The notes under the pieces are model-generated. The model was given only the letters and a program-made list of their open reading frames with translations. It made no database searches and was not told the DNA's origin. Below, piece after piece: positions 6,935-9,970 of a stretch of 64,000 nt of DNA. A program made the translations under genes and the position numbers. Each line of letters begins with the position of its first letter. The first letter of the stretch is position 1. The DNA is taken from assembly GCA_021156365.1 (NCBI GenBank), contig JAJNDK010000007.1:1-64000 (forward strand). Direction: 5' to 3'. The DNA is from Bacteroidota bacterium (GTDB lineage Bacteria > Bacteroidota > Bacteroidia > B-17B0 > Aurantibacillaceae).

Positions 6935-7729
6935 ATGAACTTAAGCAGTAATTTAAAACTGTTACGCAAACGAAAAGGCCTCACGCAGGACGAAGCGGCA
7001 GAGCAGATGGGGATATCAAGGACCAAGGTAAATGCATACGAAAACGAGCATTCCGAGCCCACCATCGATAGCCTGATCATGCTGGCGACCTTCTACGGCA
7101 TCAATGTGGATACCCTCATTAAGACCGATCTGTCGCGCCTGTCCGAAAAACAGCTGGAAGAGGTCGAAAACGGCTATGATTCCTATATCAGCGGCTCCAA
7201 ATTGCGTGTACTGACCTCCACCGTGGACAATGACGACAATGAGAACATCGAGCTGGTGCCTGCCAAAGCCAAGGCCGGTTACACCGAAGGTTACAACGAT
7301 CCCGATTTTATCTCCAAACTGCCGACCTTTCAGCTGCCTTTTCTGTCGAAAGAACGTAAATACCGAACTTTTCAGCTGGACGGCGATTCCATGTACCCCA
7401 TCAAGGACAAATCCTATGTGATTGGGGAATTTGTGCAGAACTGGATCGATATCAAAGACGGCAATGCCTACGTGATCCTCACTTCCGATGATGGTATTGT
7501 GTTCAAGGTCGTTTTCAATAATATCAAGAAAGACAAAACCCTGCTGATGCACTCGCTCAATCCCCTATACAAGGATTACGAGATAAAGATCAACCAGGTA
7601 AAAGAAATATGGAAATTTGTGAGCTATTTCAGCCATGAGCTGCCGGACGTAAATAACAACCGAAGTGAATTGCTGACAGCCATTAAAGACCTCGAAGAAA
7701 AGATCAACGAGCTGAAAGTGACGCTGTAA
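6935..7729 (+). CDS. XRE-family regulator with S24 (LexA/CI-like) domain
   Basis: A 264-residue protein with an N-terminal helix-turn-helix (about 5-60: LRKRKGLTQDEAAEQMGISRTKVNAYENE) and a C-terminal S24 peptidase-like domain. Catalytic-type residues are in place: Ser152 in LDGDSMYP and Lys191 in GIVFKVVF; an Ala-Gly pair (114-115, KAKAGY) sits where LexA/CI proteins cleave themselves. It may therefore be a repressor inactivated by autoproteolysis, or a Bacteroidota variant that only dimerises through this domain. A C-terminal coiled-coil-like tail (LTAIKDLEEKINELKVTL) is extra. There is no prophage around it. A tandem TGATCA operator candidate lies upstream. Confidence 0.88.
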   Translation: MNLSSNLKLLRKRKGLTQDEAAEQMGISRTKVNAYENEHSEPTIDSLIMLATFYGINVDTLIKTDLSRLSEKQLEEVENGYDSYISGSKLRVLTSTVDNDDNENIELVPAKAKAGYTEGYNDPDFISKLPTFQLPFLSKERKYRTFQLDGDSMYPIKDKSYVIGEFVQNWIDIKDGNAYVILTSDDGIVFKVVFNNIKKDKTLLMHSLNPLYKDYEIKINQVKEIWKFVSYFSHELPDVNNNRSELLTAIKDLEEKINELKVTL

Positions 7730-7803
7730 AAGGCAGTTTTGAGAAATTTTATCTTTCTTTTTTATAGAATTGGAAAAATTGTTACATTTGCAGGCTCCAA
7801 AAT

Positions 7804-7878
7804 GGTAGATGTAGCTCAGGTGGTTAGAGCACCAGATTGTGATTCTGGGGGTCGTGGGTTCGAGTCCCATCATTTACC
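7804..7878 (+). tRNA. tRNA-His (anticodon GTG)
   Basis: Acceptor stem GTAGATG (7805-7811) pairs with CATTTAC (7871-7877). G at 7804 faces C73 at 7878, the G-1:C73 pair specific for tRNA-His. Anticodon stem CCAGA/TCTGG encloses loop TTGTGAT with anticodon GTG (7839-7841). The T arm GTGGG-TTCGAGT-CCCAT is complete. CCA is not encoded. A -7 box TACATTTG lies upstream at 7783-7790. A terminator follows directly, and the last 20 bases are duplicated 369 bases downstream. Confidence 0.96.
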
Positions 7879-7881
7879 CTT
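7859..7881 (+). repeat. Direct repeat, left copy (within tRNA-His)
   Basis: 23-bp copy inside the functional tRNA: T-loop, T-stem 3' strand and acceptor 3' strand plus three trailing bases. Identical to 8228-8250. Confidence 0.9.
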
Positions 7882-7912
7882 AAAGGCTCTTCATAATTGA
7901 AGAGCCTTTTTT
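7882..7912 (+). terminator. Terminator after tRNA-His
   Basis: Hairpin AAAGGCTCTTCA / TGAAGAGCCTTT (7882-7893, 7898-7909) with a 4-base loop followed by a T run. It begins one base after the tRNA-derived repeat, so it belongs to the inserted unit. Confidence 0.85.
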
Positions 7913-7919
7913 GTTTTTA

Positions 7920-8205
7920 ATGTATTCTGTATATATACTTTATTCGGAGAAACTGAATATTTTTTACAAAGGTCATACAAATGACATTCAGGCGAGATTG
8001 AGCCGGCATAATAATGGCCAGGAGGATTTTACCTCTAAAGGAGTTCCATGGGTTTTAATAACCAACGAAAGCGGAAGCTTATCAATTGGAATTGAAACTG
8101 AAAAATTTATCTAAAGAGCGAACGATAAGGTTTATCCTTAAGTTCCGGGAAGGAGTCGTGGGCGCCGACGAATTGTTGCGATTGCAACAATTGTCAACAT
8201 GCTGA
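7920..8205 (+). pseudogene. GIY-YIG nuclease gene, frameshifted
   Basis: From ATG 7920 the frame reads MYSVYILYSEKLNIFYKGHT, the GIY-YIG motif pair (VYI...YKG) of small Bacteroidota GIY-YIG proteins, with the catalytic-type Arg in ARLSRHNNG, then stops after 64 codons at 8112-8114. The expected C-terminal half, including the Glu of ELKLKNLSKERTIRFILKF, is present in another frame from 8089 to TGA 8203-8205. Removing one G of the GG at 8088-8089 joins the two into a normal-length protein of about 94 residues. So this is a recently broken gene or an assembly error. It is the only gene in the element bounded by the duplicated tRNA-His 3' end. Confidence 0.8.
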
Positions 8206-8227
8206 CAAAGCTCTGCTTTCGTCAACA

Positions 8228-8250
8228 TTCGAGTCCCATCATTTACCCTT
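8228..8250 (+). repeat. Direct repeat, right copy (tRNA-His 3' end remnant)
   Basis: Exact 23-bp copy of 7859-7881 without the rest of a tRNA. Just before it, GACAAAGC TCT GCTTTCGTC (8203-8222 region) can form a small hairpin. Confidence 0.9.
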
Positions 8251-8257
8251 CAAATTG

Positions 8258-8287
8258 ATCCCTTCAGTGAAAGCTGAGGGGATTTTT
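8258..8287 (+). terminator. Terminator, probably the ancestral tRNA-His terminator
   Basis: ATCCCTTCAG (8258-8267), loop TGAAAG, CTGAGGGGAT (8274-8283), then a T run. From here to 8530 I see no gene; the stretch holds two copies of AACCTTTTGGT (8393-8403, 8421-8431) and a -7 box for the next gene. Confidence 0.75.
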
Positions 8288-8455
8288 CTGTTTATAGATC
8301 TTCCGGGTATGTTCCTGATGCCCGCTTTGTTTTTTTAATTTTCTTATTCAATGAATAAAAGTTCATTTGTCGGTAGCATTGCTACAATGCGTAACCTTTT
8401 GGTAAAACAGATAAAACCAGAACCTTTTGGTGCAACAATTTTTTTCTCTAGCCCG

Positions 8456-8463
8456 TAACTTTG
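8456..8463 (+). promoter_or_regulatory. -7 box for the S41 protease gene
   Basis: TAACTTTG matches TAnnTTTG. The nearest TTTG upstream (8426-8429, inside the second AACCTTTTGGT repeat) is 26 bases away, a little further than usual. A 5' leader of about 60 bases would precede ATG 8531. Confidence 0.45.
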
Positions 8464-8530
8464 GAGAAATTTGTCGTTATACTAAATAATTTTCAAAACC
8501 TTGTAACAAGCATAAACCACATAAAAGCAT

Positions 8531-9970
8531 ATGATAAAGTATACAATTTTATTTATTTCCTTATTTTTATTGACAGGCTTTGCATACGGACAAACCTGTG
8601 ATTGTGCAAAGAACTTCGAATGGGTAAAAAAGACCTTTGAGGAAAATGATGCAGGATTCCAATATGTTATTGATATCAAAGGAAAAGCAGCCTATGACAA
8701 TCACAATAAAATTTTCCTGAAAAAAGTAAATAGCATTAAAACATCAGAAGAGTGCACACAAACACTTTATAGCTGGCTGCGTTTTTTCCGGGCAGGACAT
8801 ATTGCTATCAGGAGATCAGGAAATGATAATAGCACTCCTCAACAAACAGCCAAGCCAAAACCGGTTGAGAAATGGGAAACACTGAATGTGGATGTTCCAG
8901 GCTTTGAAAAATACCTGGATTCGAAGAAAGAACCGGATTTTGAGGGCATTTGGGAAACAAAGCCTTATAAAATAGGAATTAAAAAAAGCGGGGATTCTTA
9001 CCTTGGATTTATTATCGAAACAAGCGCAGAGGGCTGGAAACCGGGACAGGTAAAATTGAAATTCACCGACCAAAAAGGAACGTTCTACCTAAGGGACAGA
9101 ACGGGAGAAGAGTTTGACAATATAGAAGCGATCGGGAGGAATTACCTGCAGTTGGGAAGATTTACCTTAAAGAGACTAAGCCCGGCATTTGAAACAGAAA
9201 AACCGATTGAATCATTCTTCAGATCGATGGCGGCTGAAGAACCCTATTTTGAAAAGCTAAATGAAACAACTGTATTATTGAGGATCCCGTCTTTTGACGG
9301 TTCTCAGAAAGAATATATTGACAGTGTTATCCTGGCCAATGAAGCTAAAATATGTAAAACAGAGAATCTGATCATCGACCTGAGAAACAATGGCGGTGGA
9401 AGCGATGATAGTTACAGTGAACTTATACCTTTTATTTATACCAACCCGATACGGGAAGACGGCGTTGAGTTCTTATCGACCAAACTAAACAATCAACGTA
9501 TGCTGGATTTCATTACTAAGCCGGAATATGAAATGGATGAGGGAACAAAAAAATGGGCAAAGACTTCTTATGATAGCCTGGAAAAACACTTAGGTGAGTT
9601 TGTGAACCTGGAATCCACCCGGGTAAGCACAGAAGAGTATGATACGATATATCCGTATCCGAAAAACGTAGGCATACTTATTAACGGGGCCAATGGCAGC
9701 ACAACCGAGCAATTCCTGCTGGCAGCCAAACAAAGTAAAAAAGTAAAGCTCTTTGGTACGAGTACATTCGGGTCTTTGGACATATCAAACATGAATTTCG
9801 TGAAATCACCCTGTGGTGAATTTGACCTGGGCTATTGTTTATCGAAAAGCTTCAGGATCCCGGATATGACAATTGACGGTAAAGGTATACAGCCCGACTT
9901 TTACCTGGGCGATGAGATCCGGGACTATGAATGGATCGACTATGTGACTAAAATCCTGAACCAAAAGTAA
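8531..9970 (+). CDS. Secreted S41-family peptidase
   Basis: A 479-residue protein with a signal peptide (MIKYTILFISLFLLTGFAYGQ). Residues about 20-100 form a Cys-containing N-terminal helical region. The C-terminal half is the S41 (tail-specific/C-terminal processing) protease fold: LIIDLRNNGGGSDDSY (about 280-295), then VGILINGANGSTTEQFLLAA holding the nucleophile Ser, and KLFGTSTFGSLD, where the general-base Lys is expected but a Ser/Leu context is seen. No PDZ domain is obvious. It probably acts in the periplasm on unknown substrates, and activity is uncertain because the Lys position is not convincing. Confidence 0.82.
   Translation: MIKYTILFISLFLLTGFAYGQTCDCAKNFEWVKKTFEENDAGFQYVIDIKGKAAYDNHNKIFLKKVNSIKTSEECTQTLYSWLRFFRAGHIAIRRSGNDNSTPQQTAKPKPVEKWETLNVDVPGFEKYLDSKKEPDFEGIWETKPYKIGIKKSGDSYLGFIIETSAEGWKPGQVKLKFTDQKGTFYLRDRTGEEFDNIEAIGRNYLQLGRFTLKRLSPAFETEKPIESFFRSMAAEEPYFEKLNETTVLLRIPSFDGSQKEYIDSVILANEAKICKTENLIIDLRNNGGGSDDSYSELIPFIYTNPIREDGVEFLSTKLNNQRMLDFITKPEYEMDEGTKKWAKTSYDSLEKHLGEFVNLESTRVSTEEYDTIYPYPKNVGILINGANGSTTEQFLLAAKQSKKVKLFGTSTFGSLDISNMNFVKSPCGEFDLGYCLSKSFRIPDMTIDGKGIQPDFYLGDEIRDYEWIDYVTKILNQK

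Follow-up and report, generated by a model that had tools for sequence, protein, structure and literature searches.

A tRNA-His locus in the window (the whole 64,000-nucleotide stretch of DNA analysed here) holds a decayed member of a real and widespread family of small units, in which an intact tRNA gene is followed on the same strand by a GIY-YIG nuclease gene and a copy of the same tRNA broken by a palindrome. The family is undescribed in open-licence PubMed Central full texts, in which no account of tRNA-nested bacterial GIY-YIG units was found. Comparison among genomes shows the anatomy of the units, their grouping as a family, their presence or absence at the tRNA sites of close relatives and the existence of copies that lack the gene. 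These are probably homing-like mobile units of Bacteroidota, driven by the GIY-YIG nuclease and bearing a repair copy of their target, of which the window unit would be a decayed member.

The sequence-only reading of this locus had placed a GIY-YIG gene between the 3' end of tRNA-His and an exact 23-bp copy of that end, and this arrangement was recovered (Table 1), the gene matching PF01541 at 34.5 bits (cut-off 22.6). The direct repeat extends with 96% identity over 26 bp (7859-7884 and 8228-8253, spacing 369) and is the longest among 11 direct-repeat families in the 2.6 kb searched. The further claim that the insert comprises only the gene and a terminator was too narrow, as it also includes 8 nt (here called A'') that repeat the sequence bordering the break on its 5' side, and a 65-nt double hairpin (8163-8227), which folds with a z score of -3.8 and was equalled in stability by none of 200 letter shuffles. 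The second 3' end begins at tRNA position 55, indicating that the downstream copy spans tRNA positions 47 to 75, with the double hairpin interrupting it at the T-loop 5' edge. By analogy with the pair of genomes G009 and G015 described below, this downstream copy would be the original tRNA-His 3' end, and the inverted repeat behind it is probably the original terminator.

Table 1. Features of the tRNA-His locus, in positions of the window
Feature	Position	Strand	Basis or remark
tRNA-His(GTG), intact	7805-7879	+	ARAGORN; B', the element-side copy of the 3' part, starts at the T-loop 5' edge and comprises the final 21 nt (7859-7879)
Exact 23-bp repeat, copy 1 (T-loop to tRNA 3' end plus 2 nt)	7859-7881	+	
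Terminator: perfect 12-bp inverted repeat, 4-nt loop, T run	7882-7912	+	Differs from the stretch behind copy 2
GIY-YIG nuclease pseudogene, frameshifted	7920-8205	+	Open reading frames, PF01541; by eye against L091
A'' (GTCGTGGG), 8 nt repeating tRNA-His positions 47-54, which adjoin the break on its 5' side	8155-8162	+	
Hairpin 1, imperfect	8167-8195	+	Computed fold
Hairpin 2, imperfect; abuts the second T-loop half	8200-8227	+	Computed fold
23-bp repeat, copy 2, which is the stranded 3' end B (tRNA-His positions 55-75 and 2 further nt)	8228-8250	+	
Putative original tRNA-His terminator, which now follows the stranded 3' end	8258-8287	+	By eye, by analogy with the tRNA-His G009/G015 pair

The locus thus unites a same-strand tRNA, a nuclease gene and a palindrome-broken copy of that tRNA, and its duplicate 3' end beside an intact tRNA-His is the arrangement known from mitochondrial mORFs (see below). 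An intact tRNA is present even with the insert in place, which separates the locus from introns and inteins that depend on splicing, and no intron family was present among the Rfam matches at 7500-8600. No integrase gene lies between the two 3'-end copies, as the sequence-only reading had noted; the longest stop-to-stop frame there, that of the GIY-YIG gene, spans 76 aa, which is too short for an integrase, and units elsewhere in the family are likewise too short for one. Chance is an unlikely origin for the arrangement, because it recurs at tRNA-Pro and tRNA-Val in the window's genome and in many other genomes. The window also holds a tmRNA gene on the minus strand (2591-2956), with the tag peptide GEENSYAMAA.

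The nuclease gene in the window is not the working open reading frame for which it had been taken. Its N-terminal half runs in frame 1 from the ATG at 7920 to a stop at 8112-8114, and its C-terminal half lies in another frame ending with a stop at 8203-8205; compared by eye with the intact relative at L091, the frame break looks like a short deletion. The PF01541 match covers profile positions 2-50 of 78 only, the N-terminal half. Owing to the frameshift, the window copy does not encode an intact protein with all catalytic residues, which is found in relatives. The end of the C-terminal frame translates A'' and hairpin 1, and the 'ELLRLQQLSTC'-like tail that had been offered as a mark of the family lies within translated hairpin 1.

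Of the nine places in the window's genome that match PF01541, two belong to long frames of 630 and 471 aa, two share the array L003/L008 and one is a 44-aa fragment. With the fragment left out, four of the five small-gene loci that were read lie less than 200 bp downstream of a same-strand tRNA gene (Met, Pro, Val and His). The units at the Pro and Val genes share the anatomy of the window unit, with the T-stem side, a palindrome and then the 3' end of the same tRNA; traces of a copy are visible by eye in the Met unit, where the parser finds none. Within the window's genus, a site in G002 shows a single 3' end and no GIY-YIG gene (by eye). In the sister genome G001 of the same genus (L010), the orthologue of an S24/HTH gene of the window is followed by an integrase-like gene and not by tRNA-His (by eye).

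The wider distribution was assessed in three samples: small GIY-YIG loci in 41 genomes of the window's family, fetched among the matches listed; 54 loci of the same subfamily from named genomes, of which 50 were counted; and 30 loci found by searching 198 genomes across the phylum, of which 29 were counted. L008 (the same place as L003), L115, L117, L118 and L150 (contigs of the family-wide sample) and L158 were dropped from the adjacency counts, as was L245 from the phylum count. The suggestion that the arrangement may represent a family is borne out by its recurrence across many Bacteroidota genomes in all three samples. Adjacency to tRNA, which the sequence-only reading had expected of small GIY-YIG genes, applies to part of them: 38 of 94 family-wide loci (among the matches listed), 41 of 50 named-genome loci and 22 of 29 phylum loci have a same-strand tRNA gene no more than 200 bp away, leaving 56, 9 and 7 loci, respectively, that do not follow the expectation, whereas an opposite-strand tRNA lies within that distance at 0, 1 and 0 loci. 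Among the matches listed, 44 of the 59 family-wide loci with unlabelled tips fall in a separate clade of ordinary small GIY-YIG genes, and some of the remaining 15 are interrupted by contig ends.

A FastTree phylogeny of 150 domains contains a branch (support 92) that divides 45 tips, none of them tRNA-labelled, from 105 tips, of which 75 are tRNA-labelled and 30 unlabelled. The ordinary small GIY-YIG proteins of the same genomes, which form the clade without a tRNA-labelled tip, therefore act as an internal control, and this clade, in place of random genes, serves as the control for tRNA adjacency. These ordinary genes are presumably of the YhbQ/UPF0213 type. At least 36 switches of tRNA type are required among the 75 labelled tips, which carry 20 type/anticodon labels, against a mean of 55.4 changes (minimum 51) for shuffled labels, indicating that tRNA type is partly inherited and often switched. 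Matches at E values up to 1e-12 were found in 81 of the 198 phylum genomes and in 52 of 103 genera, and 52 of the 54 named-genome loci belong by title to Bacteroidota, the others being one Chlorobiota and one weak Gammaproteobacteria match; the window's genome, too, is therefore probably from Bacteroidota. Phage, plasmid and viral-contig vehicles were considered and rejected, since the phage and plasmid collections contained no relatives and the viral-contig search matched one distant contig. Other structured RNAs were likewise rejected as usual neighbours: Rfam searches of 60 loci (three sets of 20, mostly without a detected close tRNA) returned six tRNAs and just two riboswitches, one cobalamin and one TPP.

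Across 82 pairs of tRNA and GIY-YIG gene, the parser, which sought a tRNA copy solely beyond the gene as seen from the tRNA and makes both false and missed calls, found an insert-broken copy of the same tRNA in 56 (45 of type R and 11 of type L), the 3' part alone in 4 and no copy in 22. Known artefacts are L040-L, L068-L, which is one of the 11 of type L, and L135-Arg; the copies at L120 and L135-Pro were missed, and copies seen by eye among the parser-negative pairs are those of the degenerate L107 type and of L120 and L135. An earlier parser mis-set some breaks, and the counts given here come from its replacement. Type R units present, in order, the intact tRNA, usually a terminator, the gene, A'' as a short 5'-side copy, the hairpin and the 3' part B. 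Type L is the mirror image, with the 5' part, the hairpin, a short 3'-side copy, the gene and the intact tRNA. L088 and L092 differ in having the gene outside the pair of tRNA copies. The stability of the insert was matched by at most two of 200 letter shuffles in 44 of the 56 cases and by none in 34.

Break positions were set by rule, and a few are mis-set. With this reading, the T-loop or 5' T-stem contains 32 of the 45 type R breaks (18 of them exactly at T54) and the anticodon loop 7, and the D-arm contains 9 of the 11 of type L, a total that includes the L068-L artefact. The duplicated part thus tends to be the shorter part of the tRNA, which is the one that restores it. In the stems of the double hairpins the letters change and the pairing is kept: pair 3 of hairpin 2 is G-C in 13 and C-G in 11 of 26 rows, a comparison in which the stems were picked for pairing and a few rows are mis-set, so that the evidence lies only in the variety of pair types. 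These counts are used because a consensus fold from a MAFFT alignment of 16 double hairpins misaligned hairpin 1; that fold recovered four pairs, two of which change on both sides. The same tRNA and site can hold different palindromes (L053 versus L084 and L093), and units form tandem arrays at L052, L055, L093 and L094.

Several loci depart from these arrangements. At the tRNA-His loci L139, L146, L148 and L152 a double hairpin stands directly 3' of the tRNA, before the terminator and nuclease gene, and L146 additionally carries a degenerate tRNA-His copy with a hairpin at the acceptor end. The tRNA-Asp units L138 and L143 duplicate and interrupt the trailer/terminator stretch instead of the tRNA, suggesting that the target may be stem-loops in general. 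At L201 (G031) a tRNA-His gene has a downstream unit and an upstream copy broken twice, by TCCCGATAGCTATCGGGA in the D-arm and by a double hairpin in the T-loop, and the mirror-type copy at the tRNA-Met gene of L184 (G009) includes, by eye, part of the upstream (promoter) stretch.

Closely related genomes provide filled and empty versions of the same site. At tRNA-Phe, G009 (L174) and the same-genus G015 are 98% identical over 588 bp of one flank and 99% over 508 bp of the other, and G009 has 126 bp extra in the T-loop, between GG and TTCGA, which duplicate the 21-nt 3' end. The proposal that the element carries a copy of the 3' end of its target holds most cleanly at this site. The insertion lacks the nuclease gene, its terminator is unlike that of the host, and its A'' is by eye an imperfect copy that differs from the host's 5' side; the non-host terminator and imperfect A'' suggest that the unit brings its own repair copy. 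At tRNA-His, G009 is filled and G015 is empty, with the G015 flank resuming behind the stranded copy of G009. Here the duplicate takes in 13 nt past the tRNA that match the host, which points to B' having been copied from the target, opposite to the evidence at tRNA-Phe, and the two sites are thus split on the origin of B'. Among the 30 tRNA-His loci examined (40 genomes with a match), 26 have neither a GIY-YIG gene nor a copy downstream and 4 have the gene, one of these without a detectable copy. Empty tRNA sites have one 3' end each, as anticipated for relatives in the sequence-only reading. Self-resistance through an altered T-loop of the rebuilt tRNA was considered and rejected, as filled and empty tRNA-His genes show no consistent difference by eye.

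Gene-less hairpins exist as well. The hairpin junction CTCGCGATGGCGAG has 28 occurrences in 6 of 41 genomes, and its reversed control has none. A nuclease from the matching subfamily or close to it is present in four of these six (L091, L062, L040 and L085); in G015 and in G034, which is 75% complete, none of the matching subfamily was found among the matches listed or fetched. The 26 distinct copies comprise 16 associated with tRNA genes and 10 elsewhere, the latter all without a GIY-YIG gene, which is present at a minority of copy loci (L159, L169, L173/L176, L183, L184 and L185). An uninterrupted site lies within 900 bp of 13 of the 16 tRNA-associated copies and of 3 of the 10 others (raw counts without a chance control), these 3 being low-complexity or short repeats and the other 7 having none. 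The solo copies L181 and L186 are missing in G015, and these sites are not clean because the adjoining G015 sequence differs too. A single-hairpin palindrome occurs at 12 sites in five genomes. Four of these are at tRNA genes; of the other eight, several lie by eye inside longer terminator-like inverted repeats, which makes the pattern weak evidence for solo copies. The idea of a minimal mobile unit agrees with the insertions that bring a target copy and with the empty and filled pairs, but it does not cover the many hairpin copies without a gene or the mirror units that restore the 5' half. At tRNA-Arg(ccg) of G009 (L161), a hairpin-broken 5' part precedes the intact tRNA, which is followed by three tandem 97-bp units, each a broken 3' part with a double hairpin, and no nuclease gene.

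In the GIY-YIG proteins, Y19, Y30, R40 and E76, which we take to be the catalytic residues, are invariant in 29 of 29 aligned sequences. The structure was predicted with a mean pLDDT of 87, and in a fold search UPF0213 (1zg2) and Slx1 ranked before UvrC and I-TevI, none below E 0.001, so that the small UPF0213/YhbQ-like proteins and Slx1 appear to have the folds closest to the model. NCBIfam gave weak matches to TIGR01453 (group I intron endonuclease) in 13 of 29 proteins (best E 1.2e-5), the first member scoring 20.6 bits against a cut-off of 56.05. Among anti-phage defence models, the candidate PDC-S14 ones matched up to 20 of 29 proteins, weakly and in part (best E 1.9e-6). A structure-selective enzyme would fit breaks at stem-loop edges.

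Under the homing-like reading, a complete unit would consist of B' (the tRNA from the break to its 3' end), a terminator, an optional single-domain GIY-YIG gene, A'' and a palindrome or double hairpin, and would occupy one point of the tRNA gene, mostly around the T-loop 5' edge. Insertion would leave an intact tRNA upstream and the old 3' end stranded behind the hairpin, and at D-arm breaks the mirror arrangement would restore the 5' half. The nuclease may nick or cut the stem-loop junction of the tRNA gene, perhaps when this is extruded or single-stranded, and the break would be repaired by copying of the unit, with A'' and B' as short homologies. Insertions that do not leave a working tRNA would be lost by selection. 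The nuclease gene is nearly always on the strand of the tRNA, possibly because it is transcribed by read-through from the tRNA promoter.

Some observations count against the homing-like reading. The rebuilt tRNA retains the uninterrupted site, so that the host itself should be exposed to a nuclease that cuts duplex T-loops. Changes of tRNA type in which A'' and B' already fit the new tRNA would need a source for both. The 22 of 82 pairs without a parser-detected copy, the genes outside the copies at L088 and L092, the hairpins of G015 and G034, and the absence of relatives from the phage and plasmid collections are also against it. The family is a variant of the target-copy homing idea and possibly a class of its own. 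The specific proposal of a new class, to which we give somewhat less than an even chance, is that of palindrome or double-hairpin units that invade tRNA-gene loops and owe their movement, both in cis and in trans, to a single-domain GIY-YIG nuclease that is structure-selective; such units would be harmless as they bring or provoke the missing tRNA part, and the nuclease-less units and solo hairpins would be their MITEs.

The main rival explanation is that the mobile part is the hairpin alone, as in REP or MITE-like sequences, moved by another enzyme such as an IS200/IS605-type RAYT, with the tRNA duplications as selected rescues and the GIY-YIG gene as a passenger that uses read-through from the tRNA promoter. 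We consider this unlikely, with several results in its favour: 10 of the 26 distinct CTCGCGATGGCGAG copies, without a GIY-YIG gene, lie away from tRNA genes; uninterrupted sites accompany mainly the tRNA-associated copies (13 of 16 versus 3 of 10, without a chance control); palindromes differ at the same tRNA and site (L053 versus L084 and L093); and the tRNA-Phe unit has no gene. A passenger gene agrees poorly with a tRNA association that tracks the GIY-YIG clade (0 of 45 versus 75 of 105 tips) and with the near-matching nuclease in four of the six hairpin genomes. The position of the gene between the two tRNA copies is no independent evidence, because the parser's search was limited to that arrangement, to which L088 and L092 do not conform.

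Tyrosine-recombinase islands are marked by a directly repeated tRNA 3' end like that found at this locus, and the units could be what is left of such islands at tRNA att sites; attR would then correspond to the 3'-end copy, and the last cargo to the GIY-YIG gene. The gene resembling a phage-type integrase at the expected tRNA-His place in G001 (L010, by eye) would agree with this origin. Short units of the same anatomy at many tRNA types, the hairpin at the break, the 5'-side copy, the mirror units and the 126-bp unit without a nuclease gene all disagree with it, and this explanation is disfavoured as scarcely credible. An RNA-level system, in which the nuclease has tRNA or its own message as substrate and the 3' UTR contains the hairpin-broken tRNA copy as a decoy, antitoxin or processing signal and not as a scar, is improbable, if less so. 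Conserved hairpin pairing, breaks mostly at tRNA loops or loop edges and the near-fixed strand would suit it, but gene-less copies and dispersed hairpins would not, presence and absence at otherwise near-identical sites resembles insertion, and to our knowledge GIY-YIG enzymes of known action all cut DNA. Plain tandem duplication of tRNA genes followed by decay, with palindromes arising by replication slippage and small GIY-YIG genes nearby by accident, is disfavoured as very improbable. It could produce the 97-bp tandem units without a GIY-YIG gene at tRNA-Arg (L161), but it accounts neither for the strand bias, clade specificity and break positions, nor for identical double-hairpin stems at many sites within one genome, nor for the sequence in the tRNA-Phe insertion that was not copied from the host site.

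The preferred homing-like reading has its nearest precedent in the mORFs of fungal mitochondria (Allomyces atp6; Glomus atp6, atp9, cox2 and nad3), in which an endonuclease gene near the 3' end of an essential gene is accompanied by a copy of that 3' end; insertion continues the host gene and strands the native 3' end downstream, and the atp9 mORF encodes a GIY-YIG enzyme (PMC3630166). Both systems share an endonuclease gene that carries the 3' end of its target, but mORFs occupy mitochondrial protein genes and their inserted 3' end is clearly diverged from the native one (PMC3630166), whereas the targets here are bacterial tRNA genes. The hairpin, mirror form and gene-less copies of the tRNA units are not mentioned for mORFs in the part of that article available to us (PMC3630166). 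REP/RAYT systems and tagged palindromes comprise short dispersed hairpins with many gene-less copies and an associated transposase family, and CGTC repeats, which also occur in Bacteroidetes, apparently have no dedicated transposase (PMC3733652). Dispersed hairpins with gene-less copies are the feature in common with the tRNA units; RAYTs, however, are IS200/IS605-type HUH transposases, and that article makes no mention of GIY-YIG (PMC3733652). The REP end tags GTAG and CGTC have no match, by eye, in the tRNA-unit hairpins. I-TevI-type group I intron endonucleases share the GIY-YIG catalytic domain (PMC1564403), but the tRNA units have no intron, their protein consists of a domain of about 80-90 residues only, and their neutrality comes from the target copy and not from splicing. 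The available part of PMC1564403 makes no mention of a tRNA-nested GIY-YIG group.

If the homing-like reading is true, bringing a copy of the target would be a third route, after introns and inteins, by which a nuclease gene can sit harmlessly in an essential bacterial gene. It would account for many small GIY-YIG genes beside tRNA genes, explain the repeated tRNA 3' or 5' ends without integrases in these genomes, and could supply an enzyme for the hairpin repeats of Bacteroidota. The units are small, their empty sites are clean, and they are testable in vitro.

Ordinary small GIY-YIG genes away from tRNA often lie between direct copies, 25-56 bp long, of repeats that look REP-like (L018, L020, L021, L026, L028, L034, L035, L044, L064, L066 and L067), and perhaps represent the same partnership of nuclease and hairpin minus the tRNA targets. 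A flanking repeat of at least 14 bp is present in 28 of 59 pieces without a near tRNA, some of these being tandem units of the tRNA type.
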